A DNA stretch of 64,000 bases from Allorhodopirellula solitaria (GTDB lineage: Bacteria; Planctomycetota; Planctomycetia; Pirellulales; Pirellulaceae), in assembly GCF_007859855.1 (NCBI RefSeq), contig NZ_SJPK01000004.1:546422-610421 (forward strand), given 5' to 3'. The notes under the pieces are model-generated. The model was given only the letters and a program-made list of their open reading frames with translations, ran no database searches and had not been told where the DNA came from. The translations under genes were made by a program, and so were the position numbers. Below are positions 324 through 62,324 of the stretch, one piece after another (position 1 is the stretch's first letter; every line of letters begins with the position of its first letter).

Positions 324-360
324 CTCTTCGCGACTCAATTGCATTGTTTTGTTATCCGCC
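324..360 (-). other. Partial attC site after the DinB cassette
   Basis: Reading the minus strand, the DinB stop codon is followed within a few bases by GGATAACAAAAC, the same motif that opens the attC sites at 57978, 58754 and 60337. Only the left half is seen; the sequence then runs into the purine-rich repeat at 270-320. I infer an integron recombination site interrupted or replaced by the repeat. Confidence 0.5.
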
Positions 361-828
361 ATTTTGGAGTGCACTGACAAACACGAAATAGTCTGTGTAG
401 GGCACTTGCCCACCAACAGAGCCGATCATTTTAGCAATCTGACCGCGATGATATGAGCCATGTGATCCGACATGGAAAATTATGTCAATTAGGGCGGTGG
501 AGTTTGCGTTGCCTTTGGAATCGCAATAACTCACGACGCGATCAACTTGGTTCGACGCCATCGACTCCAATAATCTTCCATAGCCAACCTCATTTTCGTT
601 TAGCAATGAGATGCAATCGTCCCAAGTAAGCGTCGGCCATACTGCCAAGCGTGGATCATGACCATTGATTCTGGATAGCCAGATATGCTCTGCGGCAAGC
701 AAATGCGAAAAAATCGGGACTGCATTTTTGAGCAGTTCCGGATGCCGACCCATCGCGTCACATATGCGGTGATCCGCCCATGGTATCCATTGAACAAATG
801 TAACGATGTGGTCGCTAGGGGATGTCAT
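352..828 (-). CDS. DinB-family protein (integron cassette gene)
   Basis: 158 residues, matching the four-helix DinB/YfiT metal-binding fold. The presumed metal triad is His48 in the SHLLAAEH segment plus His123 and His127 in the HGSYH segment. Many family members are metal-dependent thiol or detoxification enzymes, but the substrate here is unknown. The longest frame starts at 939; I chose the ATG at 828 because the extra 37 residues would lie inside the attC-like site at 841-950 and do not resemble the family. An attC-like site precedes the gene and a partial one follows its stop, so it is most likely a cassette read from the minus strand. Confidence 0.75.
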   Translation of the reverse strand: MTSPSDHIVTFVQWIPWADHRICDAMGRHPELLKNAVPIFSHLLAAEHIWLSRINGHDPRLAVWPTLTWDDCISLLNENEVGYGRLLESMASNQVDRVVSYCDSKGNANSTALIDIIFHVGSHGSYHRGQIAKMIGSVGGQVPYTDYFVFVSALQNGG

Positions 829-840
829 GGTATATGAGTC

Positions 841-950
841 GGATAACGTAGAGGTCACCGGGCAACGTGGCACCGCAGCGGAGGCGGAGAACTGGCGAAG
901 CCAACCGCCGGAGTGGAGGTGACGCGTTAACCGGTGCACTGCAGTTGTTC
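841..950 (-). other. attC-like recombination site
   Basis: On the minus strand the site opens GAACAACTGCAGTGCACCGG and closes with GCCCGGTGACC, then ACGTTATCCGAC. CACCGG in the left arm pairs with CCGGTG in the right arm, and the flanking arms pair imperfectly around a GC-rich centre. Opening and closing motifs match the sites at 56791, 57978 and 59511. It lies directly upstream of the DinB start. Confidence 0.55.
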
Positions 951-1602
951 GTAGCGTACCCGCGATCGCGCGCGTAGCAACACACTACGCGACCGGCGAT
1001 AACGCAATCGTATCGAGTCGTTCACACGCACGCAAGCAAATTCGAGCGTTGCACTTCCGGGCGGCGGGGACCAGCAGCTGTGGATTAGGGTGCGATTAGC
1101 GAAGATTAGTGTTCTCAGCATACTGGTTTTTGGGAACAGTGCCCGAAAAGGGGAAGGGGTTCTTTTGGTATGCAAGGGGAAGGGGTTCTTTTGGTATGCT
1201 CAGTCGCTGCGAATAGGCTAGGAAACCGACTTGGCAAGCCGACCAGTCGTCGGGCGTGTCCCGCTCCCAGCTTACCTTCGCTCCCGTTGGTCGCTGCGGA
1301 CGTGGTCGCTCAGCGCGAGGGGCTTCCAGTAAAGTCTTCCCACGGTGGCAGCCATTCGCGTTGACGTGGATCAAGGATGAGAATCTGATCGTGAGTGATC
1401 CGATTTCCTTTTAACCTCGCGACTGACGTTTCTGGTCGGAAACCTGGAACCGCGTCGACTTCAGGTCCCGGAAATAACGTCCTTTGGGGTGGCCCACTGC
1501 GACAAAACGCTCGAGGCTGCTAAACTGGGTAGGTAGTCGATCTCTCCAGGCGATCCGTTCGTCTTCCTGCTCTGTTCCTGTTCTCCCGTCAAGTCTGCTG
1601 TC
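951..1602. other. Intergenic region with purine-rich repeat
   Basis: No gene is supported. Positions 1148-1173 and 1174-1199 are a perfect tandem duplication of a 26-base unit containing AAGGGGAAGGGG and TTCTTTTGGTATGC, related to the purine-rich family elsewhere in the window. The stretch 951-1100 may be a gene-free remnant of a further cassette. 1200-1602 holds only short frames with no recognisable content and presumably carries the promoter of the pseudouridine synthase gene. Confidence 0.4.
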
Positions 1603-2841: not shown

Positions 2842-3702
2842 ATGGCGACTCTGCACGCGAAACATTACGCCGACGCGATCTCACATCTCGACGCACCCTT
2901 GCTGCTCAATGAGCAGGTTGCTGAGAACACCTACTTGATGCGGGTGCGGGCGCCCGCGATCGCGGCAACCGCGAAGCCGGGGCAGTTCGTGATGATTCGA
3001 CTGGCGGGGCTCGACGCGCCGCTGATCGGACGCGCTTTTGCGATCTACGACGTGCATCCCGATCCGGAAAGCAATGCCGCCGATTCGGTTGATCTGATCT
3101 ATCTCCGCAAAGGAGCGTTGACGCGGCCGCTGTCCGAAGCCCCCGTCGGCACGATGGTCTCGCTCTGGGGGCCGCTCGGCAATGCGTTTCGCGATGATCC
3201 TTGTGAGCGATTGATCATGGCGGTTGGTGGAATCGGTCAAACACCCATGCTGATGGCCGGACGCGATGCCCTGCAGCGAGGATGGGCCGACCACGTCGAG
3301 ATGATCTATGGGGCCCGTCGCTCCTCACTACTCGCCGGAGTCAGTGATTTTCGCGACGCAGGTTTTGCCGTGACGACTTGCACCGACGACGGGTCCGAAG
3401 GCCGCCAAGCGCTCGTGCCGGATGTACTCGCCGAGAGAATTCAAACGCTGCAGCAGGAATCGCCGGACGCTAAGATCCGAGTTTTGACCTGTGGCCCCGA
3501 AATCATGATGGAGAAGGTCGCCGAAGTCGGCGCGGCACAGGGTGTCGATGTGCAGGTTTCGATGGAAACGCCGATGGCGTGCGGCATCGGTATTTGTTTT
3601 TCATGCGTGGCCAAGGTGATCCAGGAAGATGGCGAGTGGGATTACAAACGAACCTGTGTCGATGGCCCCATCTTTGATGCAGAGCAGCTGTGTTGGGGTT
3701 AA
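2842..3702 (+). CDS. pyrK: Dihydroorotate dehydrogenase electron-transfer subunit-like flavoprotein
   Basis: 286 residues with the PyrK/ferredoxin-NADP reductase layout: an N-terminal FAD barrel, a pyridine-nucleotide domain (GGIGQTPML near residue 131), and a C-terminal [2Fe-2S] motif with Cys247, Cys252, Cys255 and Cys272. In class 1B dihydroorotate dehydrogenase this subunit passes electrons to NAD+ in pyrimidine synthesis. No pyrD lies beside it, so its partner must be elsewhere or it may serve another flavoenzyme. It lies 6 bases after the pseudouridine synthase gene. Confidence 0.8.
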   Translation: MATLHAKHYADAISHLDAPLLLNEQVAENTYLMRVRAPAIAATAKPGQFVMIRLAGLDAPLIGRAFAIYDVHPDPESNAADSVDLIYLRKGALTRPLSEAPVGTMVSLWGPLGNAFRDDPCERLIMAVGGIGQTPMLMAGRDALQRGWADHVEMIYGARRSSLLAGVSDFRDAGFAVTTCTDDGSEGRQALVPDVLAERIQTLQQESPDAKIRVLTCGPEIMMEKVAEVGAAQGVDVQVSMETPMACGIGICFSCVAKVIQEDGEWDYKRTCVDGPIFDAEQLCWG

Positions 3703-3751
3703 GGTAGTGAGCACGCGAAGTACGCGTCCGATCCATTTTTGAAGTACCCTG

Positions 3752-4912
3752 ATGAATACTCCAACCGATCAATCGTGGGCAGCACAGGCTCCCGTTGCAC
3801 AGGATCCCGTGGTTCTGGCAAGTCATCCGGTCGAGCCGCAGAGTCAGCCCGCAACGGTGCGTAACCCCGCGCCGACTCCGGACTTGTCCATCGTGATTCC
3901 AGCCATGAACGAGGAGGAATCGCTGGGCACTCTGCACGAGCGAATTCTCGACGTCTGCCAACGCGCCGATCAGCGTGTCGAAGTAATCTTTATCGACGAC
4001 GGCTCGAGCGATGCGACCTGGGCCCGAATGAGCGATTTAGCGACCGCGCATCGCGGCACGCGGGCGATTCGGCTGCGTCGCAACTTCGGCAAAGCGGCCG
4101 CCCTTAGTGCCGGATTCTCGGTCGCTCGCGGCAAGATCGTGATCACGATGGATGCCGACCTGCAGGATGATCCGGACGAGATTCCACGGTTCCTCGAGAC
4201 GCTCGATAAGGAGTCTCTCGACGTTGTCAGCGGCTGGAAACGCGTGCGTCATGACCCCTGGCACAAGGTCCTGCCGAGCCGTGTGTTCAATGCCATGGTC
4301 AGCGGGCTGACCGGCGTGCGGCTGCATGATCACAATTGTGGTTTTAAAGCATACCGGCACGATGTGTTGGATGAAGTCGATCTGTATGGCGAGCGCCATC
4401 GCTTCATCCCCGTTCTCGCGGCCGCCCGCGGCTGGAAGGTCGGCGAGATCGAGGTACTGCATCACCCACGTGTGCACGGGCAATCCAAGTATGGTCTGTC
4501 GCGACTGGGAAAGGGATTTCTCGATTTGATGAGTATCTATTTGTTGACTGGATACGCACGCCGGCCACTGCATTTGATTGGTTCCGCTGGGTTGATGTGC
4601 TTTGCCGTTGGATCTCTCGGCATGATCTACCTCAGCGTGATGTGGGTACTGACGCGGTTGGGCAGCGGCGAGCCTCTGCATCTGCACGCAACGGCCGTGT
4701 TTTATTACTGCATCCTGGCTGTGCTGTTGGGGGCCCAGTGCGTCTTGGCGGGCCTGATTGCCGAGTTGATAGTTTCTGTTTCAGCGGCCCGCGATCGTTC
4801 CCTGCGAACGCTGCAGGGCAATGCGACCGGGGCTCAGCGCGGTGTGGCTGACGAGTCTTTGCCTCGCTCGAGTGTGCTCTATAGCGTCTCCGAGACAGTG
4901 GGCCGACGTTGA
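3752..4912 (+). CDS. Family 2 glycosyltransferase, dolichol/polyprenyl-phosphate type
   Basis: 386 residues. The GT-A domain starts near residue 47 (LSIVIPAMNEEESL), with FIDDGSSDATW and the metal-binding region MDADLQDDPDEIP. Two C-terminal membrane helices lie at about residues 270-345, giving the GtrB/DPM1-like architecture that transfers a sugar from a nucleotide donor to a polyprenyl phosphate at the cytoplasmic face. The stop overlaps the start of the downstream membrane gene by one base (TGATG), so the two are probably translationally coupled and the lipid-linked sugar may be used by that protein. Confidence 0.85.
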   Translation: MNTPTDQSWAAQAPVAQDPVVLASHPVEPQSQPATVRNPAPTPDLSIVIPAMNEEESLGTLHERILDVCQRADQRVEVIFIDDGSSDATWARMSDLATAHRGTRAIRLRRNFGKAAALSAGFSVARGKIVITMDADLQDDPDEIPRFLETLDKESLDVVSGWKRVRHDPWHKVLPSRVFNAMVSGLTGVRLHDHNCGFKAYRHDVLDEVDLYGERHRFIPVLAAARGWKVGEIEVLHHPRVHGQSKYGLSRLGKGFLDLMSIYLLTGYARRPLHLIGSAGLMCFAVGSLGMIYLSVMWVLTRLGSGEPLHLHATAVFYYCILAVLLGAQCVLAGLIAELIVSVSAARDRSLRTLQGNATGAQRGVADESLPRSSVLYSVSETVGRR

Positions 4913-6641: not shown

Positions 6642-9600
6642 TTGACTTCATCGGAATCCGATTCACGCCCTCACGCGGGCCGCAACCGTTTGAAGACGTT
6701 GTTGGTGGTGGTGTTGATATGCCTGGCGACGCTGGTCGTGATCCGAACGATCGGGCCGCAAACGCTCGGCGAGCAAGCGCGGCGGATCTTCGAGAGTCAA
6801 CTTGCCGAGCATTACGTGGACTGGAACGTGTCGATTGGACGCGGCGTTTTTCGCCCGGGGATAGGGCTGCAGTTTGAAAACATTCGACTCTCGCCGCGCA
6901 CCTCGTTCAGTGCTGCGACTGATTCGCAGCACAGTCGCGTTGCCATCCTCCGTGACACGATCTTGCAGAGTTGGCAGGCTGAGCCAGCTGTCGCGATCAA
7001 ACGAATCACGGTTTTCTCCGACATTGATATCCAGGAACTGCTTGACCGTCGCAATCCGTTGAAGACCCGGCGGGTGGTCATCGACGGTGTGACCGCCGAC
7101 GCGAGTTTGCAGTCCGACGGCGAGTTTTCGTTGGCGGGTTTATGGCCACCACCTAAGCTTGGCCCCACGTGTCCTCTAATCGAACTCCGCGACGTCGGGC
7201 TGAACGTCACAATCGAGGCCAAAGATGCTGCCAAGGACGACGCTTCGGCAGACCTCCAAGATGGGGGGGGGCGTCGTGACATCGCCGCGAGCACCAGCAC
7301 GGCACCGCTACAGTTTCATTGGTCAGAGATCCGAATTGAAAACACACCCGACAGATTTGGGGTAGGGGACGGCAGTCGCAGGGTCACGTTCCGGGGCAGT
7401 AGCGATCTCTATCGTCACTGTGACATGCAGTTCTCGCAGATGCTCCGAGACGAAAGCGTCGTCCAGACGCTCGTGCAGTCACGCGTCGCCGATTTGCGAC
7501 TCAGTGATGAATTGTATGCGCGGATGGAAACCTGGCTACCCATTCGCCTGCCCGCGGACGCTCAGTTCAGCGTGGCCGGTGATTTGGATGTCCAGGTGCA
7601 GTTGGGCACACTCTCCAGCGGCGATGTCCCGGCCCAGCCGCACACGCTCGACTATGATATTGACTACGTGATCCGGCAGGGTGGATACGCCGACAAGCGT
7701 CTGCCCGACAGGATTGAGCAGCTCCATGGGCGAGTGCATTTGACACCGACAAAGTTGGAGTTGTTTCCCACCGAAGCTAAGTTTGGATCCGCCACCTGCC
7801 AGGTGCAGGGTTCGAGCGATATCGAAGTCGCCGTGATCGATCCGGCATCCACAACATCGAGCTACCTGAAGCCACTGCATCAGCGGCCGGAGGTATTTTC
7901 GATAGCGATTGGCGAATTTCATTTGACCGCATCGCTGTCCAATTCCCGTTTCCAAATGGGGACGAAGAATCTGCAGCTTAACGAGGGACTCCGCCGCTCG
8001 TTACCCGCTCGCTCCGCACTCATCTTCGATCGTTTTCGACCAGCCGGCTATGTCGACATGGCTGCTCAGTGGGCACATCCAGACCCGTTCAATGGCCAGC
8101 CTTGGGGGATCCAGGCGGACGTGCAGTGCAAAGGGGTGGAAGTCCGGTTTGACAAGTTTCCCTACCCCGTTGAAAAACTCTATGGGAAGATCCAAATCGC
8201 CGATGACCGCGTGATCGCCCAGCATCTGACGGGGGTCGCAGGTGGGCGACCGATCCACTGCCGCTTTGACGTGCCACGCAAGGTAAACCCCGGCGCAGAC
8301 ACTTCGCCCGAGAAGACGATTGTGATCCAATCCGATGGAGCGATCGCAATCAACAATGCACTGCTATCGGCCTTGAGCCCACGTGTGCTACCGGCGAGCG
8401 GAGAAATGGCAGCGGATTCCGAGCCGACCGGACTCGAGAGTTTCGTTCGTTCTTTACAGCCGCGTGGGGCGATCGAGTTGGCCTCGGCGACGATCTCGAC
8501 GAATGCAGCGGGTGTGACGAGTCGACAGATCGATCTACGGGTTATTGGCGGAACGCTGCGCTACGAAAAGTTCGCCTACCCGCTGTACAATGTCGCCGGT
8601 CGTATCCAAGTCGAGGATGACCTCGTCCGTTTGATCGGATTCACCGGCAACAATGCCGGAGCGGCCAAGATTGCCTGCGACGGCTTGTATCAGATGCCTC
8701 GCGAGCAGGCACCGTCGGAATTGAATCTGCGATTCCGCGTAGCCGATTTAGCGATGGACCATTCGCTTCGCGTCTCGCTGCCAGAATCTTCTCGATCGGC
8801 TTGGGATGCGCTCTCGCCGGCGGGCACGTTGGATAAACTCGACGTGCAAATCCGACAATCAGGTACCTCTCCGATCGCACTGTCGCTCGATGCATCGCAT
8901 CAAACGGAATCACGGGCCAACCCGAACCCGTTGAGCATCCGACCCAAGGCCATTCCCTACCGTGTTGATATTGTCGGAGGCAAAGTAGGATTGCACGACG
9001 GTGTCATTCGCATTGAGGACCTTCGCGGGAGACATGACGCGTCGCGTTTGATCGCCGACGGCGTCTGTCAGGCGGAGCCGTCGGGGCAATGGCTGCTCTC
9101 CTTGGATTTGCAGAGTGGCAGTCGGCTGATTCCCGATGAAGAGTTTATTGCCGCGATGCCGGACCAGATGAGTTGGGCGATGCGTGGCTTGGACCTGCGT
9201 GGACCCTTGGGGCTGCGCGGCGTCACGAATATCCTTTTGCCTCAAGACGAAAACACATCGCCTGTCATCGAGTGGGATCTCGCTCTGCAGCTCGAGGGCA
9301 ATCGGATCGCCGACGTCGGTCCGGTTCATTCCCTCCGCGGTGAGATCATGATCCGCGGCATCAAGGACGGTGAACTAGTGCGGGCCGGCGGTGAGGTTGC
9401 GATAGATTCACTGCATGCCTATGGGCTCCAGGTCACTTCGCTGACAGGACCTTTTTCAATCGTGGGGGAGGAATTACGGCTGGGGACACTCGCTAGTGAC
9501 GTGGATCCGATTTCCGGTATGCAGCTGAACATCCCTGGTGAGATCAGGGGCGGGGCCGACGGTGAGCCGTCTCGGCCACCGATCTCGGGGACCATGTTCG

Positions 9601-10241
9601 ACGGCCAGCTCGACGTGAGCGGGATCCTCGCCATGTCGAGCGGCGATTTTGATGTCGGAGTGTCGATGGGCAACGCCCAGCTCGCCACCATCCTCGCTGA
9701 GATGGGGCAAACACGATCAGGGATTACTGGGCGTTTCGACATGAATTCGAGGCTCGATGGACGCTTGGGCGATTCGGATCTGCTCAAGGGAGCCGGGACG
9801 GCGCGCGTCAGTGGTGCCAATATGTACGAGCTGCCGATGTTGGTGCAGTTCTTCAACCTGCTCCGCATCACTCCTACCGAAGACGTTGCGTTTACTGATG
9901 CCCAAACTGAATTTGCGATCTTCGGTGAAGACGTGAATTTCAATCGTCTGTCCCTGTGGGGCGACTTGATCGCACTCGATGGCAGCGGAACGCTGACACG
10001 ATTGGAGCATCTCGATCTCACGTTCAATACCAAGGTCAGCCCCACCAACTTGTTCAGCAAGGTCATCAGCCCTCTGCGTGACAACCGCTACACGTTCTTC
10101 ACCGTGGAGGTCGATGGGCCGATCTCGGGGCCGACGATTCAGCGACGGACCCTCAGTGGTGTCAGTCAAACGTTGGAATCTTGGTTCCCAAGTATGATCC
10201 GCTCCACGACCGCGGAGACTCCCACGCCAACGCGTCGGTAG
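6642..10241 (+). CDS. AsmA-like membrane-anchored envelope protein
   Basis: Very large protein, about 1,199 residues from the proposed TTG start at 6642. One N-terminal membrane helix (LKTLLVVVLICLATLVVI) is followed by a long periplasmic part rich in beta-strand repeats, ending in an AsmA-type C-terminal region (about residues 1,030-1,170; ITGRFDMNSRLDGRLGDSD, MYELPMLVQFFNLL). AsmA-like proteins (TamB, YhdP, YicH) bridge the periplasm and are implicated in phospholipid transport. The open frame extends up to 6435, but that part overlaps the previous gene by 130 bases and lacks family character. Start uncertain; TTG at 6690 is an alternative. Confidence 0.75.
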   Translation: MTSSESDSRPHAGRNRLKTLLVVVLICLATLVVIRTIGPQTLGEQARRIFESQLAEHYVDWNVSIGRGVFRPGIGLQFENIRLSPRTSFSAATDSQHSRVAILRDTILQSWQAEPAVAIKRITVFSDIDIQELLDRRNPLKTRRVVIDGVTADASLQSDGEFSLAGLWPPPKLGPTCPLIELRDVGLNVTIEAKDAAKDDASADLQDGGGRRDIAASTSTAPLQFHWSEIRIENTPDRFGVGDGSRRVTFRGSSDLYRHCDMQFSQMLRDESVVQTLVQSRVADLRLSDELYARMETWLPIRLPADAQFSVAGDLDVQVQLGTLSSGDVPAQPHTLDYDIDYVIRQGGYADKRLPDRIEQLHGRVHLTPTKLELFPTEAKFGSATCQVQGSSDIEVAVIDPASTTSSYLKPLHQRPEVFSIAIGEFHLTASLSNSRFQMGTKNLQLNEGLRRSLPARSALIFDRFRPAGYVDMAAQWAHPDPFNGQPWGIQADVQCKGVEVRFDKFPYPVEKLYGKIQIADDRVIAQHLTGVAGGRPIHCRFDVPRKVNPGADTSPEKTIVIQSDGAIAINNALLSALSPRVLPASGEMAADSEPTGLESFVRSLQPRGAIELASATISTNAAGVTSRQIDLRVIGGTLRYEKFAYPLYNVAGRIQVEDDLVRLIGFTGNNAGAAKIACDGLYQMPREQAPSELNLRFRVADLAMDHSLRVSLPESSRSAWDALSPAGTLDKLDVQIRQSGTSPIALSLDASHQTESRANPNPLSIRPKAIPYRVDIVGGKVGLHDGVIRIEDLRGRHDASRLIADGVCQAEPSGQWLLSLDLQSGSRLIPDEEFIAAMPDQMSWAMRGLDLRGPLGLRGVTNILLPQDENTSPVIEWDLALQLEGNRIADVGPVHSLRGEIMIRGIKDGELVRAGGEVAIDSLHAYGLQVTSLTGPFSIVGEELRLGTLASDVDPISGMQLNIPGEIRGGADGEPSRPPISGTMFDGQLDVSGILAMSSGDFDVGVSMGNAQLATILAEMGQTRSGITGRFDMNSRLDGRLGDSDLLKGAGTARVSGANMYELPMLVQFFNLLRITPTEDVAFTDAQTEFAIFGEDVNFNRLSLWGDLIALDGSGTLTRLEHLDLTFNTKVSPTNLFSKVISPLRDNRYTFFTVEVDGPISGPTIQRRTLSGVSQTLESWFPSMIRSTTAETPTPTRR

Positions 10242-54413: not shown

Positions 54414-54818
54414 TCAGAAACGGCATGCCCCCGTCGTACGCCGAGTGCTGTGAGAACGCGTCAATCGTGACGCAATCGTGACTGAGCCCCCCCGAGGGGT
54501 AGCTAGACTACCTTTATGCACCGACATAGACCCCGTAGAACCAAGTGTTTTACGGGCTTTTTTCGTTTTCGGGTTTTCTCTGTAGTGGCCCATATCAGCA
54601 GGAATGGGACCGCCAGAATCGGCGGTGCTCATTGGCTCGCCCGTTTCGGTGCTCAATCCAGACGCGAAGTGCTCATCCGTCACTCGGACGTAATACTTGG
54701 CCGCGGTCGCTGAACGATGGCCTAGCCACGCATTTACAACGTGATCCTGGAATATCTCTTGCAATTCGGTTCGCCGGGTTGCCCGCAGATTCTGAAAAGT
54801 CTTTTCCCAGATCGGCAA
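54414..54818 (-). pseudogene. C-terminal fragment of a tyrosine recombinase
   Basis: The segment KTFQNLRATRRTELQEIF followed by VVNAWLGHRSATAAKYYVRV carries the C-terminal catalytic signature of planctomycete tyrosine integrases: Arg in LRATR, His in WLGH and the Tyr nucleophile in KYYVRVTDEH. The N-terminal SAM-like and first catalytic parts are missing: an in-frame stop lies about a dozen bases upstream. The remaining tail after DEHF is low-complexity. It is a truncated remnant of an integrated element. Confidence 0.75.
54532..54563 (+). terminator. Possible intrinsic terminator
   Basis: CCCGTA (54532-54537) pairs with TACGGG (54551-54556), followed by C and six T. The short six-pair stem makes it weak. 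It lies 180 bases downstream of the coiled-coil gene, inside the recombinase remnant on the other strand. Confidence 0.35.
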
Positions 54819-55515: not shown

Positions 55516-55782
55516 CTACCGTGCTGGAACGGGAGAAGGGGAAGGGGGGCGTTCTGACTGCAGTCGCTTAATCGACCCCCTTCCCCTTTTCTTCGGCAGT
55601 CCGTTTTCTCCGGCCATGCGGGAAAATTGCAGGGTCGTTTCGCGATTGACAGCCAATTCGTTTACCAGGCCCTGGGGGAACGTCATCGCATACCGCCGCA
55701 GCCACTTCGGGAACCAAACCCGGTCGCTCTCCCCCACGCCATCGGCAGACGCCACCGCGATCTCAAGCTTCCAAAGTGTCAT
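55516..55782 (-). pseudogene. Possible integron-integrase N-terminal remnant, cut by repeat
   Basis: The first 55 residues (FPKWLRRYAMTFPQGLVNEL, AVNRETTLQFSRM) resemble the N-terminal SAM-like domain of integron-type tyrosine recombinases. After this the frame runs into the purine-rich hairpin (minus-strand ERPPSPSPVP), so the catalytic part is missing. Its direction, pointing away from plus-strand cassettes that start 190 bases beyond its ATG, is exactly that of intI in an integron. The identification rests on recall of similar integrases, not a search. Confidence 0.45.
55530..55595. repeat. Purine-rich hairpin repeat, copy within the recombinase remnant
   Basis: AAGGGGAAGGGGG (starting at about 55536) pairs with CCCCCTTCCCCTT (starting at 55576) around a centre containing CTGCAGTCGCTTAATCGA. 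The same centre and arms recur at 60497-60560 and 61503-61560. Confidence 0.8.
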
Positions 55783-56404: not shown

Positions 56405-56467
56405 CGACACGATTCTGGCAACCTGCAAATACCAATGGAGACTCTTCCGCCGCCGCACAAATCCGAC

Positions 56468-56555
56468 GAACAATCCGATGCACGGGAGCGGCGAAGTCGG
56501 GCGGATTTACAATTGACAATCACTTGTCGCCGCCCCGTGATCGGTGACGTTCCGC
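56468..56555 (+). other. attC site 1
   Basis: Opens GAACAATCCGATG and closes GGTGACGTTCCGC. Left arm CACGGG-A-GCGGCGA (56481-56494) pairs with right arm TCGCCGCCCCGTG (56527-56539) with one unpaired A, the extrahelical base typical of attC. Confidence 0.8.
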
Positions 56556-56883
56556 AGTTGATCAAAACCTCACGCTCCGTCGTCCGCGGTGATCGGTGCG
56601 CTCGAATGATGCCCATGATCCCGATGCTCGATCCATGCTCGGATCAGCTTGTTCGACCGCCAACTCGAACACGGGGTTCAACGCCGTTGACCATCATCGA
56701 TCCCATGCTCGGCACATGCTCCGATCCATGCTGCTACAATCCAGGCTCCGAGACAGACGATTCCTTGTGCTGGCCGCCGGTTCGGATGCGGAACAATTCG
56801 GTGCACCGGCGTAAGGGCGTCCATCTCTTTCCCGTTTCCAATATTTGCCGAACGCCCTTACCCGGTGACCTTGGCGTTATGTG
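56556..56883 (+). repeat. Duplicated cassette, copy A, with 72-residue open frame
   Basis: About 330 bases nearly identical to 58843-59195. A frame from GTG 56596 to TAA 56814 encodes 72 residues (MRSNDAHDPDARSMLGSACS...), about 79% identical to the frame in copy B, and in both copies its stop lies just inside the attC left arm. Internal short repeats of GATCCATGCTC leave room for a non-coding role. No family recognised. Confidence 0.6.
56791..56882 (+). other. attC site 2
   Basis: Opens GAACAATTCGGTG and closes CTTGGCGTTATGT. Left arm CACCGG-C-GTAAGGGCG (56804-56819) pairs perfectly with CGCCCTTACCCGGTG (56853-56867) except for one unpaired C. Confidence 0.85.
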
Positions 56884-56900
56884 ACTAACTGAGATATTGA

Positions 56901-57980
56901 ATGGCAAAGAAAACTGCGAAGAAATCACAAGCACCGAAGAAGGCCGCCAAGAAGAAATCGAAGCCTGCGCCATCAAGCGCGCCTACTTACCCCCGCCACA
57001 GTTCAGAGGCAGCACTACGAATCCCGAAAGCCATCCTCGACCAAAATGCTGGCAAACCCAGCAGCGACGCACAGGCTGCCGAATTCCTTAACCTCAAGTC
57101 CGCCAAGGGACCATTCGCTGTTGAGATTAGCTCCGGCATCAAATATGGGTTCCTGAATCGTCCCTCTACGGGAACGCTAGAGGTCACGGAACTTGCCAAG
57201 CAAATCTTGAGGCCCAAGTCATCGAACGACATCGCCAACGGATACCAGCAAGCGGTGCTGAACGCACCCACAATTTCAGATGTGTACATGCATTACCGTG
57301 GGGAGAACCTCCCCGACCGACAGTTCTTCGACAACGCGCTCGAAGACACTTTTAAAATCCCCCGGGACAAGCTTTCAGAGTTTAAGGATGTTTTTACGCA
57401 ATGTTTAACGGTTGCAAAACTTTCGGAGCAACACGATGGCCGTGTGCGCATATTGCACTCTGCAGCCTCCGATGAAGAGGTGTCATTGGATGGTGATGAA
57501 AGGATTGAAAAAATCGGTAAGGGTGCAGGTGTCAAATCAACCGACACCTGTTTTGTAATGATGCCTTTCGGCGCTCCGATCGGAAAATACTACGACTCCG
57601 TATATAAGCCCGCGATTGAAAAAGCAGGCTTAACACCGATGCGTGCCGACGATGAGATTTTCGGCGCTGGCAAAATAATGGATCAAATTTGGCTTGGTAT
57701 AAACAATGCCAAGATATTGGTTGCGGAACTGACCGGTAAGAATCCCAATGTGTTTTATGAATTAGGCCTTGCTCACGCACTGCAAAAACCTGTCGTCTTG
57801 GTCTCATCCAACGAAGATGACGTCCCGTTCGATCTTCGACACATCAGAGTAATCTACTACGATTGCAGTGATCCATTTTGGGGCCAGAAGCTCATGGCAA
57901 AGGTTGCAGAGAACATCCTTTCGGCATTGAAAAATCCGGAAGAGGCAATGTTCGAACCACTGTCCCAAGACGTCACATAA
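56901..57980 (+). CDS. Winged-helix plus TIR/deoxyribosyltransferase-like protein (cassette; possible defence effector)
   Basis: 359 residues. A Lys/Ala-rich N-terminal tail (about 1-30) is followed by a helical winged-helix-like region (about 32-150: AAEFLNLKSAKGPFAVEISS, TGTLEVTELAKQIL). The C-terminal domain (about 210-345) begins DTCFVMMPFGAPIGKYYDSV and contains LVAELTGKNPNVFYELGLAHAL, with the conserved NPNVFYELG(L)AHA of TIR-like/nucleoside deoxyribosyltransferase-like folds that act on nucleotides or NAD+. Such proteins occur in anti-phage systems; that role is inferred. The gene lies between attC sites 2 and 3, and its TAA is the first triplet of attC 3. Confidence 0.75.
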   Translation: MAKKTAKKSQAPKKAAKKKSKPAPSSAPTYPRHSSEAALRIPKAILDQNAGKPSSDAQAAEFLNLKSAKGPFAVEISSGIKYGFLNRPSTGTLEVTELAKQILRPKSSNDIANGYQQAVLNAPTISDVYMHYRGENLPDRQFFDNALEDTFKIPRDKLSEFKDVFTQCLTVAKLSEQHDGRVRILHSAASDEEVSLDGDERIEKIGKGAGVKSTDTCFVMMPFGAPIGKYYDSVYKPAIEKAGLTPMRADDEIFGAGKIMDQIWLGINNAKILVAELTGKNPNVFYELGLAHALQKPVVLVSSNEDDVPFDLRHIRVIYYDCSDPFWGQKLMAKVAENILSALKNPEEAMFEPLSQDVT

Positions 57981-58064
57981 CAAAACATTGAACCGGAGTG
58001 GCGAACATGCCGGTTTTTGAAATCAACGTCAACCGTCGCCACCCGGTTAATGTCGACGTTATCC
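57978..58064 (+). other. attC site 3
   Basis: Opens TAACAAAACATTG (the TAA is the stop of the preceding gene) and closes GTCGACGTTATCC. Left arm AACCGG-A-GTGGCGA (57991-58004) pairs with TCGCCACCCGGTT (58036-58048) with one unpaired A. The textbook form of the family in this window. Confidence 0.88.
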
Positions 58065-58095
58065 GAAAGAACGTTGACGAACATCCGCAAGGAAA

Positions 58096-58728
58096 GTGAC
58101 ACAATTGGCTGACCTACCTTCTGCTCCCGACGAAGCTTTTGTTCGTGACTGCATTGCACGAGGGGAAGACCTACACACGGAGTTCAAATCGAACGTTCCT
58201 AGCTTCTTTGCACTTGGGCAGATCATCTCTGCATTCGCGAACGCCGATGGTGGCGTCGTGCTCCTCGGCATTCGGGAACCGGATCAAATCGTGGGCGTTG
58301 ATTGGGCGACTCTGTCTCGTGTATTCGATCGGGCAATGTCCTCTCTCAGCGGCGGACCGAATATCTACCTCCATCGCGTATCAACTTCGGATGGTGACGT
58401 AGGCGTCGTTGTAGTTCGCCCATCCACGCAAGCCGTCGTTTCCGCGGGTGGTGCATTCATCAGAGAGGCTGATCGAATGCGTCCTTTGACAGCAGACGAA
58501 TTGCGTACGAAACTAGGCGACATCCAAGGCACTGCTGAAGCTGACATCGGCAATTCGATTGCGGAACTGACGCAGGTGGTTCAAGACATGTCGGATCAAC
58601 TTGCACAATCAAGGAGTTTTCGGGCGCAGCTCCCCGGCTACATGATCGGCTTTTTACTCGGCATCATTGCATCGGTCATCGCAAGCGTGATTTTTGCATC
58701 CAATCTAATCTTTCGTATCTTTGAGTGA
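58096..58728 (+). CDS. Schlafen/AlbA_2-domain membrane protein (cassette)
   Basis: 210 residues. The AlbA_2 domain spans about 10-130: GEDLHTEFKSNVPSFFALGQ, SAFANADGGVVLLGIREPDQIVGV and IREADRMRPLTADEL are diagnostic of the Schlafen-type putative ATP/nucleic-acid-binding fold. A coiled stretch (150-175) leads to a C-terminal membrane helix (MIGFLLGIIASVIASVIF). The combination suggests a membrane-tethered sensor or effector; AlbA_2 proteins are common in defence islands. The GTG start has AAGGA just upstream. Bounded by attC 3 and 4. Confidence 0.75.
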   Translation: MTQLADLPSAPDEAFVRDCIARGEDLHTEFKSNVPSFFALGQIISAFANADGGVVLLGIREPDQIVGVDWATLSRVFDRAMSSLSGGPNIYLHRVSTSDGDVGVVVVRPSTQAVVSAGGAFIREADRMRPLTADELRTKLGDIQGTAEADIGNSIAELTQVVQDMSDQLAQSRSFRAQLPGYMIGFLLGIIASVIASVIFASNLIFRIFE

Positions 58729-58753
58729 TGTCATATTTCTGGTTAAAACTATC

Positions 58754-58842
58754 GGATAACAAAACGCTGCACGCCGAGCCGCCGATCGCATTTTCTGAAG
58801 CCAAAGTCACTCGCGGCGGCCGGGTGAACGCCGCCGTTCCGC
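58754..58842 (+). other. attC site 4
   Basis: Opens GGATAACAAAACGCTGCACG and closes GCCGTTCCGC. GCCGCCG in the left arm (58778-58784 region) pairs with CGGCGGC (58814-58820), and CAC with GTG further out; unpaired bases separate them. Pairing is poorer than at sites 1-3. Confidence 0.65.
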
Positions 58843-59195
58843 AGGTGACTGAAACCTCACGCTCCGTCGTCCGCGGTGATCGGTGCGCTCGATCCAGGCT
58901 TGTGATCGGTGCGCTCGGCTGATGCTCGTGATCCCGATGCTCGATCCATGCTCGGATCAGCTTGTTCGACCGCCAACTTGAACACGGAGTTCAACGCCGT
59001 TGACCATCATCGATTCCAGGCTCCGCACATGCTCCGATCCATGCTGCTACAATTCAGGCTCCGAGACAGACGATTCCTTGCGCTGACCGCCGCTTCGGAT
59101 GCGGAACATTTCGGTGCACCGGAGTAAGGTCGTCAATCTCTTTCCCGATTCCAATGTTTGCCGAACGCCCTTACCCGGTGACCTTGGCGTTATTT
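58843..59195 (+). repeat. Duplicated cassette, copy B, with 72-residue open frame
   Basis: Second copy of the 56556-56883 cassette, slightly longer owing to a small internal duplication near 58880-58920 (GATCGGTGCGCTCG repeated). A frame from GTG 58909 to TAA 59127 encodes 72 residues (MRSADARDPDARSMLGSACS...). Differences from copy A include many amino-acid changes, so strong protein-level selection is not evident. Confidence 0.6.
59104..59195 (+). other. attC site 5
   Basis: Opens GAACATTTCGGTG and closes CTTGGCGTTATTT. Left arm CACCGG-A-GTAAGG (59117-59129) pairs with CCTTACCCGGTG near 59169-59180 with one unpaired A. Near-copy of site 2. Confidence 0.82.
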
Positions 59196-59510
59196 GTGAT
59201 AGCGAGCTCGTCCAACGCCTGTCGAATTTGCGCTCCTGGTAGTGCTTCGATTCAATGACGTTGAGACGACGATGAACAAGCGGCGTGACGCTGCGGAAGC
59301 CAGCGCCGATCAACTCCGACGCCTGTCAAATCCAGTGCCTGACAATTCCAGTGCCTGACAATTCCAGTGCCTGACAATTCCGACGCCTGACAACTCCGAC
59401 GCCCGAAGTTGTGTCGTGAATCCCACACCGATACAATGCACGAAGCACCGTTTGCCGCTGAACGTTTCACGGCGTTTCGCTGAAGACAAAACAGACCAAC
59501 GCCCTTGCAA
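59196..59510 (+). repeat. Gene-free cassette with 16-base tandem repeats
   Basis: No plausible gene. Positions about 59310-59405 contain six imperfect tandem copies of a 16-base unit, CCTGACAATTCCAGTG and variants ending CCGACG. The segment lies between attC 5 and attC 6, so it reads as a gene-less or decayed cassette. Confidence 0.6.
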
Positions 59511-59597
59511 ATAACAATGCCATGCAATGGAGGACGGTGTTCACGTCTTGGCAGGTGAACGTCGCTCTACCGTCCCCACTGATGGCCAACGTTATCC
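59511..59597 (+). other. attC site 6
   Basis: Opens ATAACAATGCCATGCAATGG and closes GGCCAACGTTATCC. Left arm TGG-A-GGACGGT (59528-59538 region) pairs with ACCGTCCCCA (59569-59578) with one unpaired A; the outer GCCAT pairs with ATGGC. Confidence 0.8.
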
Positions 59598-59616
59598 GAC
59601 TGAAAATACATTGATC

Positions 59617-60342
59617 ATGACCAGCATCCCAAACTCACCGATTGATGAACTTGCCGAAAAGATTTTCGGCGAGTCCATATCAAATTTTGCCAGAGGCAAC
59701 TCCGTTGCTAAAAAACAAGCGACCCGCGATGTTCACCCTACGATTGCTGCATTGCAGTTTCCAGAGGAATATGCGGTGTTGGTTCTCGGAACGCGAATGG
59801 ATGCGGAACTAGAAACAATCATCAAAAATGGATTGCACAAACAAGGAAACGCAAAGCGTTTGCTTTCTCGTCTTTTTTCCAATTTCGCGACCAAAATTGG
59901 TGTCGCTTACGCATGCGGATTTATTACGAAGCAAATGTACGACGCGCTAGAATTGGTTCGTAAAATCAGAAATCTATACGCACACTCCGAAGACCCTTTC
60001 GCAGTTCGAGCATCAGAGGAATACAAGCAACATTCGGCGTCGCTTTTAAATCTAAATAAAGATTTGACGGAGAAGTCTGCGGTTGAGTTGCATTCACATA
60101 GCTTGCAAGCCGATTCAGATAGCGCAGCGAAGGTGGAAGATTTCAAGCTGGTCGGCATACTCGTAACCATATGTGATCGACTCGGTTCCGCTGCGTTCTT
60201 CTCGGTCAATGGATTAGAAATGCCACAGATCTCAGTGATTCCTGCATTCTTCGCATTGACTGATACTCCTGAGATGGTCAATGTTGCCGGGCATCGTGGA
60301 TTTTTTCCGAATACCTCCGGCTGGCCCCAAAACGGCGGATAA
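59617..60342 (+). CDS. MltR/DUF4145-like protein (cassette)
   Basis: 241 residues. Residues about 50-130 (LVLGTRMDAELETIIKNGLH, KIGVAYACGFITKQMYDALE and LVRKIRNLYAHS) match the helical MltR/DUF4145 fold, in which a conserved R-x-RN-x-x-AH segment recalls HEPN-type proteins. MltR represses the mannitol operon in enterics, but cassette-borne relatives have no known target. ATG 59617 follows attC 6 by 19 bases; the stop TAA lies inside the GGATAAC of the next attC. Confidence 0.7.
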   Translation: MTSIPNSPIDELAEKIFGESISNFARGNSVAKKQATRDVHPTIAALQFPEEYAVLVLGTRMDAELETIIKNGLHKQGNAKRLLSRLFSNFATKIGVAYACGFITKQMYDALELVRKIRNLYAHSEDPFAVRASEEYKQHSASLLNLNKDLTEKSAVELHSHSLQADSDSAAKVEDFKLVGILVTICDRLGSAAFFSVNGLEMPQISVIPAFFALTDTPEMVNVAGHRGFFPNTSGWPQNGG

Positions 60343-60385
60343 CAAAGCGGTTGAACGGGAGCGGGCATTCACGTCAACCTGTTTG
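60337..60385 (+). other. attC site 7, left half only
   Basis: GGATAACAAAGCGGTTGAAC and GGGAGCGGGC follow the MltR-like stop exactly as at intact sites, but no matching right arm is seen; the sequence passes into the purine-rich tandem array at 60386. Confidence 0.6.
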
Positions 60386-60597
60386 GACGGGAAAAGGGGA
60401 AGGTGGACGGGAAAAGGGGAAGGACGGGAAAAGGGGAAGGACGGGAAAAGGGGAAGGACGGGAAAAGGGGAAGGACGGGAAAAGGGGAAGGACGGGAAAA
60501 GGGGAAGGGGGGCGTTTTGGCTGCAGTCGCTTAATCGACCCCCTTCCCCTTTTCTTTGGCTTCCCCTTTTCTTTGGCCTTCCCCTTTTCTTTGGCCA
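60386..60597. repeat. Purine-rich tandem array and hairpin
   Basis: Seven copies of the 17-base unit GACGGGAAAAGGGGAAG start at 60386, 60406, 60423, 60440, 60457, 60474 and 60491 (the last six in perfect tandem). A centre with CTGCAGTCGCTTAATCGA follows, then the complementary arm CCCCCTTCCCCTTTTC and three units of TTCCCCTTTTCTTTGGC. The whole is a strand-asymmetric purine/pyrimidine hairpin. Confidence 0.92.
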
Positions 60598-60723
60598 GAA
60601 CAATCGAATGCACGGGAGTATGCTGCTCACGCGGCAATTCGACCTTTCTTGATTCATTAAATTCCGTCGCAGTTCCGCCTCTTGCGATTTGGTCCGCATA
60701 CCTCGTGATTCTTAGCGTTACCC
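60598..60723 (+). other. attC site 8
   Basis: Opens GAACAATCGAATGCACGGGA directly after the purine-rich array and closes CTTAGCGTTACCC. Left CACGGG-A-GTATGC pairs with GCATACCTCGTG (60697-60708) with one unpaired A and a G-T pair. Spacer longer than at the other sites. Confidence 0.7.
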
Positions 60724-60748
60724 CGTGAACAACAGGAAGCTCTCACGC

Positions 60749-61483
60749 ATGCGATCTTTCCAAAAAAACATTTCGTCGCTTGCGTTTCTGGCGATAATGA
60801 CTTGTGGTTGTGGAAGATCTTCGGGGCCGCTTGAGACAAGCCAGATTCCGCATAATCAGCGACTGTCACAGGACCCGGAGCAATCCGGAGCACAGTTGAC
60901 GGTTAAACGCAATATGGACGTCGAGACGATCCTTTCGGACCTAGGATTGGACGCATGGGCTTTTGAAGTGACTGGCGTGCCTTGGACGTGGGAAGTAACG
61001 ATTTCCCATCGGCCAAAAGGAAAAAATCGGAGGAGTCGAATTGTCTATCAACGAAGCTACTTAGAATCCTCGCAGTCATTTTACGCAAAGAACCGTTCGG
61101 CGGACTCGAGCAACGGAGCGTTCGGCTCCGTTGTCCTTCTTTTGCCTGATCCCGTGTCCCCGGAGCAGCAGTTTGAGGAGGATCTAATCATCACGACGAA
61201 ACTCGGGTATGATCCGACAAGTGGCAGAGGGATAGGTCGTAGAGCTGTCAGGGAAACAATACGAAAGCCGATCAAGGAGATCTATCCTGCTAGCGTTGGC
61301 TCCTACACATCAAGAAGCGAAAACCCGCGTGGATCCCGAAGGTTTGCCAAGATTTCCGAGGGCGAAACCGTAGCACTCGTCGACGAGGCTCACGATTTTG
61401 AACATTGGGACGACCGATTGCCATCCGACCAGCGCGAGACCATTCGCATTCAGTTAAACATTTCCACACTCGAGCTGGAATGA
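60749..61483 (+). CDS. Hypothetical lipoprotein (cassette)
   Basis: 244 residues from ATG 60749. The signal MRSFQKNISSLAFLAIMTCG then C forms a likely lipobox with Cys21. The mature part shows no family I know: WAFEVTGVPWTWEVTISHRP, FGSVVLLLPDPVSPEQQFEE, GETVALVDEAHDFEHW. GTG 60725 would add eight residues. It follows attC 8, and its end runs into GACAAGCGACGGG and the next purine-rich repeat where an attC would be expected. Confidence 0.6.
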   Translation: MRSFQKNISSLAFLAIMTCGCGRSSGPLETSQIPHNQRLSQDPEQSGAQLTVKRNMDVETILSDLGLDAWAFEVTGVPWTWEVTISHRPKGKNRRSRIVYQRSYLESSQSFYAKNRSADSSNGAFGSVVLLLPDPVSPEQQFEEDLIITTKLGYDPTSGRGIGRRAVRETIRKPIKEIYPASVGSYTSRSENPRGSRRFAKISEGETVALVDEAHDFEHWDDRLPSDQRETIRIQLNISTLELE

Positions 61484-61498
61484 CTACCGCTGACAAGC

Positions 61499-61641
61499 GA
61501 CGGGAAAAGGGGAAGGGGGGCGTTTTGACTGCAGTCGCTTAATCGACCCCCTTCCCCTTTTCCCGCTCCTTCCCCTTTTCCCGCTCCTTCCCCTTTTTCC
61601 GCTCCTTCCCCTTTTCCCGTTCCTTCCCCTTTTCCCGTTCC
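61499..61641. repeat. Purine-rich hairpin with pyrimidine tandem units
   Basis: GACGGGAAAAGGGGAAGG and a GC-rich step lead to the shared centre CTGCAGTCGCTTAATCGA, followed by the complementary arm and about five units of TTCCCCTTTTCCCGCTC or its GTTC variant. It is the mirror layout of 60386-60597: here the tandem units are on the right arm. It ends exactly where the ISL3 transposase fragment begins. Confidence 0.9.
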
Positions 61642-61642
61642 A

Positions 61643-62324
61643 ATTTCACGTCAGCAAGTATCTCGGCGTAGCGGTCGACAAGGTGCGCCGTCGAGAAGAG
61701 CGAGAACTCAAAGCCGAGGGCGACGAGCGCCTAACAGGGCTTCGCCAGATGCTTCTTTACAATGAAGAGAACCTGAGTGAGGACCAGCAAATCGAGCTTC
61801 CTATCTTGCAGAAGAGCGACCTGCGCACGAGACGAGCCTGGGCTCTGAAGGAGAACTTTCGACACTTCTGGGACTGTGGCAACGCGGCTGCTGGGCAGCG
61901 TTTCTTTGATGGCTGGTACGGTTGGGCAGTTCGCAGTCGCTTGGAATCGATCAAGAAGGTCGCCAGGATGCTCAAGGGGCATTGTCCGGGCCTGATAAGC
62001 TACTTCAATCACGGCGTCACAAATGCTCTTTCAGAAGGATTCAACAGCAAAATTCAGTCGATCAAATCCGCCGTCCGGCGGTTTCGTTCGTTCAAGAACT
62101 ACCACCTGAGAATCTTATTTTGGGTTCATCCGGCGGAAGCGTGCGCAGAGCACAGCGGAAGTTTTTTTGAGTACTGTCATATCCAGAACGAAAATTTGCA
62201 GTGCGCGCGTACGCTCAGCGGCACCACCAATAGGGTAGCTTTTTCGACACTCAAAGTCCACTGTTTGTCGGCCAGCCAGCACGGCTCGGTTAGCTTTGGT
62301 GGTTCAGTCTCGCCACCCTGGTAG
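61643..62324 (+). pseudogene. 5'-truncated ISL3-type transposase
   Basis: The frame begins without a start at the end of the purine-rich repeat: FHVSKYLGVAVDKVRRREER matches the centre of ISL3 transposases. ENLSEDQQIELPILQ, WALKENFRHFWDCGNAA and FNSKIQSIKSAVRRFRSFKN then LRILFW form the C-terminal DDE domain. The N-terminal zinc-finger and first catalytic Asp are missing. Positions 62113-62172 match the end of the inverted-repeat element at 22372-22430. The tail after LRILFW is likely not original coding sequence. Confidence 0.8.

Follow-up and report, generated by a model that had tools for sequence, protein, structure and literature searches.

A 64,000-nucleotide stretch of the Allorhodopirellula solitaria genome (hereafter the window, meaning the whole stretch that was analysed) carries polypurine hairpin repeats, several of which lie in or against attC sites of integron cassettes. 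What kind of element are these repeats, and why are they found there? A preliminary description had placed them at 270-320, 1138-1199, 55530-55595, 60386-60597 and 61499-61641, and all five loci were confirmed at these positions. Within the window, AAAGGGGAAGG matches 22 times with at most one mismatch, compared with 0.75 matches expected from shuffled sequences. Across the 6.8-Mb genome, the 12-mer AAAAGGGGAAGG occurs in 33 copies, which form 13 clusters, compared with no copy of the reversed control. The hairpin centre CTGCAGTCGCTTAATCGA, reported as shared by three loci, has exactly three copies in the genome, every one of them inside the window, while contig C25 holds a fourth, slightly divergent hairpin copy. 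The motif said to be common to the loci was likewise recovered, with the correction that the left arm at 55530 is a variant (GAGAAGGGG) and the exact motif lies in the right arm there. The three window hairpins are predicted to fold well below shuffled sequences (z -4.2 to -7.7). An Rfam search of the window gave no match.

Two of the loci are left-type TIRs on the plus strand, one at 270-320 with 2.1 tandem units of 19 nt (GGTGCCCGAAAAGGGGAAG) followed by GGGGGTCTTTTGGG, the other at 1138-1199 with two tandem units of 26 nt. The remaining three, also on the plus strand, show the feature that characterises REPINs, namely two inverted ends that form a hairpin. At 55528-55596, the two TIR ends form a REPIN-like hairpin. 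REPIN1 (60385-60597) is composed of seven left-end units of 17 nt, a hairpin core at 60491-60554 and three right-end units, and REPIN3 (61499-61641) of a hairpin core at 61499-61562 and five right-end units of 18 nt. The cores of REPIN1 and REPIN3 are direct repeats, 98% identical and 1008 bp apart. Read outward, the consensus TIR end is ACCCCCTTCCCCTTTT. Among 118 distinct outer ends selected by the 11-mer CTTCCCCTTTT, four internal bases are C in 99-110 of the 118, the DNA further in is AT-rich and base preferences outside are weak. Tandem periods of 17, 18, 19 and 26 nt were found in the end arrays, in which a unit consists of the core and some outer nucleotides, mostly 5 to 8, and mostly measures 17-19 nt. 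This linker is identical to the sequence after the last copy in 18 of 22 end arrays, a trailing C being set aside. In the source genome, the core is preceded by ACGGG in four hairpin copies and by GTGCCCG in three others, hence the outer piece either travels with the element or represents a target motif. CCTCGC, CTTTGGC and others also occur as outer linkers.

The origin of the repeats becomes apparent outside the window. In several genomes, among the subset of repeat-bearing genomes examined, the repeat bounds a transposase gene. In the source genome, it lies in inverted orientation on both sides of an intact gene for a 234-aa Y1 (HuH) transposase (G000:C5:333212-333916). At this locus (L090, C5:333 kb), the left TIR is located at 9122 and the right TIR at 9920 and 9938, and the stop codon of the gene extends into the right TIR. 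The protein matches Y1_Tnp (PF01797, Pfam E 1.4e-13, IS200-like), with NHWH as HuH motif and YVERNA as Y motif, and reaches E 2.4e-16 and 59.9 bits, under the curated cut-off of 80, with the NCBIfam model REP_Tyr_transpos (NF047646). A PDB sequence search with the transposase gave no meaningful relative. Fragments included, 14 matches to it were found in the source genome. In G160, the ORF of a 227-aa relative lies between exact left and right ends; in the sister genome G008, the right end of a related gene is exact and the left end one base off (AAAAGGGGTAGG); and in G009, a fragment of the transposase gene adjoins one end. Other transposase subfamilies in the source genome have their own end-repeats in the same layout, e.g. 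around GGTGACGG, GGTGTCCGG and AAATGGGTCAGG, which indicates that the polypurine character is a feature of one family and not the principle.

Given a repeat that bounds a transposase gene, forms hairpin dimers and tandem end units and has counterparts of the same layout in other subfamilies, it is very probable in our view that the repeats are the TIRs of a Y1/HuH single-strand transposase of the TIRYT/RAYT kind, accompanied by non-autonomous REPIN-like dimers and tandem ends. They are no new class of element; the situation in the window is mostly an ordinary one, in which two mobile systems collide. The odd repeat thereby gains a named cause and a transposase gene amenable to expression and testing.

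How widely is this family distributed? The 14-mer AAAAGGGGAAGGGG gave 216 matches in 39 of 241 genomes of the bacterial family, with three or more matches in 14 genomes and 51 matches in G160, compared with 24 matches in 20 genomes for the reversed 14-mer, among them one genome with three. One or two matches per genome are close to what the reversed 14-mer gives, so that the figure of 39 genomes is to be read as a maximum. The polypurine repeat is certain in about a dozen genomes, and the single matches in the remaining ones may be chance. When the 19-mer GGGGAAGGGGGGCGTTTTG was searched across phyla, in a scan that may omit the source genome, seven stretches matched, of which only that of Planctomycetes bacterium CA13 contains a real repeat, hairpin included. 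A spread to other phyla was rejected, as six of the seven stretches are devoid of the AAAAGGGGAAGG core. Four genomes (G206, G209, G211 and G212; loci L189, L195, L203 and L206) have an identical flank beside a single polypurine end, on opposite strands, which reflects either an old insertion retained in several species or an insertion that was carried along.

The second mobile system is a real integron cassette array at 56465-59600. Employing an attC model (R1) built from 18 sites of the genus, we found six attC sites in one orientation on the plus strand, at 56465-56558, 56790-56885, 57975-58067, 58754-58845, 59103-59198 and 59509-59600. Among the cassette ORFs, 58096-58725 codes for an AlbA_2/Schlafen domain protein and 56901-57977 for a protein with a nucleoside deoxyribosyltransferase-like end, below the Pfam cut-off; both are possibly defence-related. 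At least 150 attC sites were counted in G160. A truncated Y1 transposase copy is located within an attC array at G000:C3:571 kb (L256 3001-3377); its end-repeats belong to another family, and the copy stops 26 bp short of an attC site.

Beyond the array, an orphan attC left arm on the plus strand (60337-60367) has the second-best left-arm score of the window (17.9, compared with 12.4 for the best of the shuffled window), which falls to only 6.8 bits under a later arm model. REPIN1 sits between this arm and a two-armed attC-like site of the long kind on the plus strand, which it abuts (60593-60720; 18.9 bits at a weak E of 0.22, and not listed by the model with filters off). In the sister genome G006, copies of this site with 92% and 91% identity score 22.6 and 12.0 bits and are located among other attC sites. 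The site is followed by a cassette ORF of 252 aa without Pfam family (60725-61483, plus strand). The cassette, 60716-61494, is 92% identical to one in the sister genome G004, where an attC site of 36.6 bits precedes the copy. The match stops at 61494, where the cassette's own attC should begin, and REPIN3 comes next in the window. The attC half that had been presumed at 61484-61499 is thus backed indirectly, by the end of this match. On its other side, REPIN3 adjoins the C-terminal part of an ISL3 transposase gene (61642-62324, plus strand), cut at the repeat edge and represented by an intact 419-aa relative in G007. As REPIN3 joins the end of a cassette to the middle of this gene, its flanks are not former neighbours, which points to a deletion or rearrangement. 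In G004, the place that corresponds to the start of REPIN3 is taken by the remains of a group II intron, interrupted by an IS3-like element (L253 4075-5610, G004:C95), so that different elements occupy the same attC position. The intron pieces in G004 share 83-86% identity with group II introns in an attC-bearing stretch of G009 (L096, G009:C2), where three copies were found at 3681-4182, 6970-7471 and 8987-9488 (RF00029, RF01998, RF02001).

A comparable arrangement is present at the opposite end of the window. There, an orphan attC left arm on the minus strand (329-357) lies at the 3' terminus of a cassette ORF of the DinB family (355-828, minus strand; PF05163, Pfam E 1.3e-8). The arm reaches 8.8-9.0 bits under the later arm model and scored too low to be listed by the first one. 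Counted from the first base of this arm, the inner part of the TIR at 270-320 starts after 40 nt. An attC-like site of the long kind at 839-957 (minus strand) was not listed by R1; its right arm alone was scored (10.3 bits), and the site as a whole was assessed visually, by comparison with a similar one in L258 (3883-3997, 21.1 bits). The order attC site, ORF, attC left arm, flanked on either side by repeats, occurs twice in the window, at 270-1199 and, with the last attC arm inferred, at 60386-61641, each time with different genes. The succession of attC left arm and repeat seen at 270-357 recurs at C5:258.9 kb (L257 3396) with a repeat from another family. The observation that a repeat adjoins an attC half was therefore sustained for 60386, for 270-320 and, indirectly, for 61499, and not for the other two loci. 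One of these, at 55530, had been thought to cut an integrase-like frame; the ORFs concerned (54417-54818 and 55519-55782) gave no Pfam match at E 0.01.

Is this vicinity of repeats and attC sites a general one? After clusters less than 30 bp from a locus end and identical copies had been dropped, attC arms of at least 6 bits were found within 90 bp of 5 of 98 flanks in the source genome (4 of 49 clusters, four end-repeat families) and of 0 of 176 flanks in other genomes (88 clusters, a sample in which many-copy genomes are represented by part of their repeat places; some of the clusters may be chance matches). Random 90-mers from the same loci gave 59 of 4000 in the source genome, where the control pieces stem from loci chosen for holding repeats or attC, and 24 of 4000 in the other genomes. 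On this control, the excess in the source genome has p = 0.018 (p = 0.17 when pooled over genomes). Compared to a rough genome-wide expectation from intact attC sites, it has p = 7e-7, in a data set that includes a window picked for this very feature; without the window, 2 of 90 flanks remain, with p = 0.38 on the same-locus control and p = 0.0097 at the rough genome-wide rate. An association of repeat and attC is thus not general: no arm lies beside 45 of 49 clusters in the source genome, nor beside any of the 88 sampled polypurine clusters elsewhere, an outcome that the preliminary description had itself named as refuting.

When the distance is widened to 1 kb, an attC site is present near 5 of the 24 repeat loci that three end-repeat families provide, compared with 0.31 expected (p = 1.3e-5), and 3 of 22 when the two window loci are left out (p = 0.003). 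Within 300 bp, the count is 2 of 24 compared with 0.17 expected, with no polypurine locus among them. The quoted 1-kb distance, with wide clustering, is one of four distances tried with two ways of clustering each, and the underlying attC count is at least 78 (150 of 3924 candidates scored), and attC sites from 15 further genomes did not enter the comparison. Since the pattern for two of the three families gave 43 matches compared with 13 for its reversed control, some of the proximity loci may be chance. Taken together, the attC statistics indicate an enrichment of the repeats in cassette arrays and an occasional position at truncated attC sites, without dependence on attC. The enrichment perhaps exists only because such DNA tolerates insertions.

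But why, then, should end-repeats be found directly behind attC left arms at all? Group IIC-attC introns and IS1111-attC elements are mobile elements that reside in attC sites and are considered to target attC; most polypurine copies, in contrast, lie outside attC. As the transposase and the integron both act on single-stranded hairpins, the repeats could preferentially insert into folded attC hairpins, a possibility already raised in the preliminary description. Three orphan left arms (60337, 357 on the minus strand, L257 3396) lie directly before end-repeats of two families, and the repeats start 38-55 nt from the beginning of sites that measure about 94 nt, which corresponds to the apical part. 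Furthermore, among non-edge arms of at least 8 bits, 2 of 5 orphan left arms have a TIR within 110 bp, compared with 2 of 164 paired arms (Fisher 0.004). This has to be weighed against the empty count for the flanks in other genomes and against the source-genome excess, which is weak relative to same-locus pieces and gone without the window on that control. Moreover, the joined outer flanks of 14 two-ended clusters are not hairpin-rich and fold like random 100-mers (-12.7 versus -13.0 kcal/mol). We regard the preference as unlikely. General attC targeting is not supported by the flank statistics, and insertion into hairpin-rich DNA generally was rejected on the folding of the joined flanks. 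A more specific scenario, in which Y1 end-repeats enter the apical part of the folded attC, keep the left arm and lose the right one, would turn cassettes into repeat-bounded units in which two single-strand hairpin systems interact. Such units could be mobilised or lost in one piece; we judge this scenario to be quite improbable.

Plain accumulation, according to which arrays are neutral DNA that collects every mobile element, is an explanation towards which we lean, and it is compatible with the TIRYT explanation. Under accumulation, adjacency to attC would arise because attC sites make up much of the non-coding DNA in arrays. The group II introns in the array of G009, the split intron remnant right behind the shared cassette in G004, the ISL3 fragment at 61642 and the small excess over same-locus control pieces all argue for it. 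Accumulation alone leaves unexplained why left and not right arms remain (a TIR accompanies none of the 10 non-edge orphan right arms), albeit in small numbers. A different proposal, that the repeat grew from an attC arm, draws on a short resemblance (GACGGGA compared to CACGGGA) and on the ACGGG before the core at the four hairpin copies. The core, however, is a transposase end-repeat in several genomes, which represent more than one genus, the outer linkers are variable, GACGGG being one of several, and the attC model had no match at E 1 with filters off inside the repeats at 55530, 60386-60592 and 61499-61641. We rejected this origin on these grounds and give it next to no credence. Finally, the purine strand might be a regulatory element that forms triplexes or quadruplexes. 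The suggested quadruplex check returned a G3-tract pattern in REPIN1 and in the minus strand of REPIN3, and none at 55530, 270 and 1138 or in one array each of two sister end-repeat families. The pattern is thus not a conserved property; a quadruplex as common property was rejected, as it is missing from three of the five window loci, and a regulatory element of this kind appears highly unlikely.

Returning to the repeats as the probable end-repeats of a Y1/HuH transposase, we suggest the following course of events. By analogy with TnpA-REP (PMC8266576), the transposase would nick and join single-stranded repeat ends and thereby spread REPIN-like dimers, and tandem ends could result from repeated joining or from slippage. 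Cassette arrays presumably tolerate insertions, and some repeat copies may occasionally have landed in attC sites. A strict pair of filled and empty states was not found for any one site. Recombination between near-identical copies, e.g. REPIN1 and REPIN3, or insertion with deletion, might then have removed attC right arms and neighbouring DNA. This deletion step is the least certain part of the mechanism and is deduced from flanks that do not belong together. In this bacterial family, integron cassettes may thus be frozen or rearranged by end-repeats located at truncated attC sites; if attC proved to be the target of the landings, there would be a link between single-strand transposition and cassette recombination.

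The repeats had been introduced as unlike any described element, which does not hold at the level of the kind: according to Di Nocera et al. 2013 (PMC3733652), tyrosine transposases flanked by TIRs, with repeats also in dimers and clusters, were described and the genes named TIRYT, and many tyrosine transposase genes with flanking repeats were reported from R. baltica. While the kind, TIRYT/RAYT with TIR repeats, is already known, no earlier report of the sequence of the polypurine family or of its attC truncations was found in our literature search. As in the TIRYT/TIRtron system outlined by Di Nocera et al., a RAYT-like Y1 gene lies between TIRs and the repeats also form dimers and clusters. 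Unlike some TIRYTs described there, the polypurine TIR has no GGGGWSAS, a motif of some members only and not a defining one, and its core is GGGGAAGG; further differences from that system are a tandem unit that includes outer linker nucleotides and the location of some copies in integron cassette arrays. In Quentin et al. 2018 (PMC6006769), 20 of 26 TIRYT examples fall into subclass 2.1, which has a C-terminal helix-turn-helix extension. With REP/REPIN sequences and their RAYTs, as presented in two studies (PMC3116915, PMC2817692), the polypurine family has in common that short repeats bound a tyrosine transposase, form inverted-doublet hairpins and occur in tandem clusters; in contrast to them, a single end is not palindromic and there is no conserved GTAG/GTGG head. 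In the aligned ends, a GT(A/G)G head beside a palindrome is not conserved, and single GTAG words lie upstream of the transposase genes. TnpA-REP of E. coli and relatives is reported to cleave at CT beside GTAG-tagged hairpins (PMC8266576), and the polypurine family would resemble it in that a HuH/Tyr transposase is expected to act on single-stranded repeat DNA.
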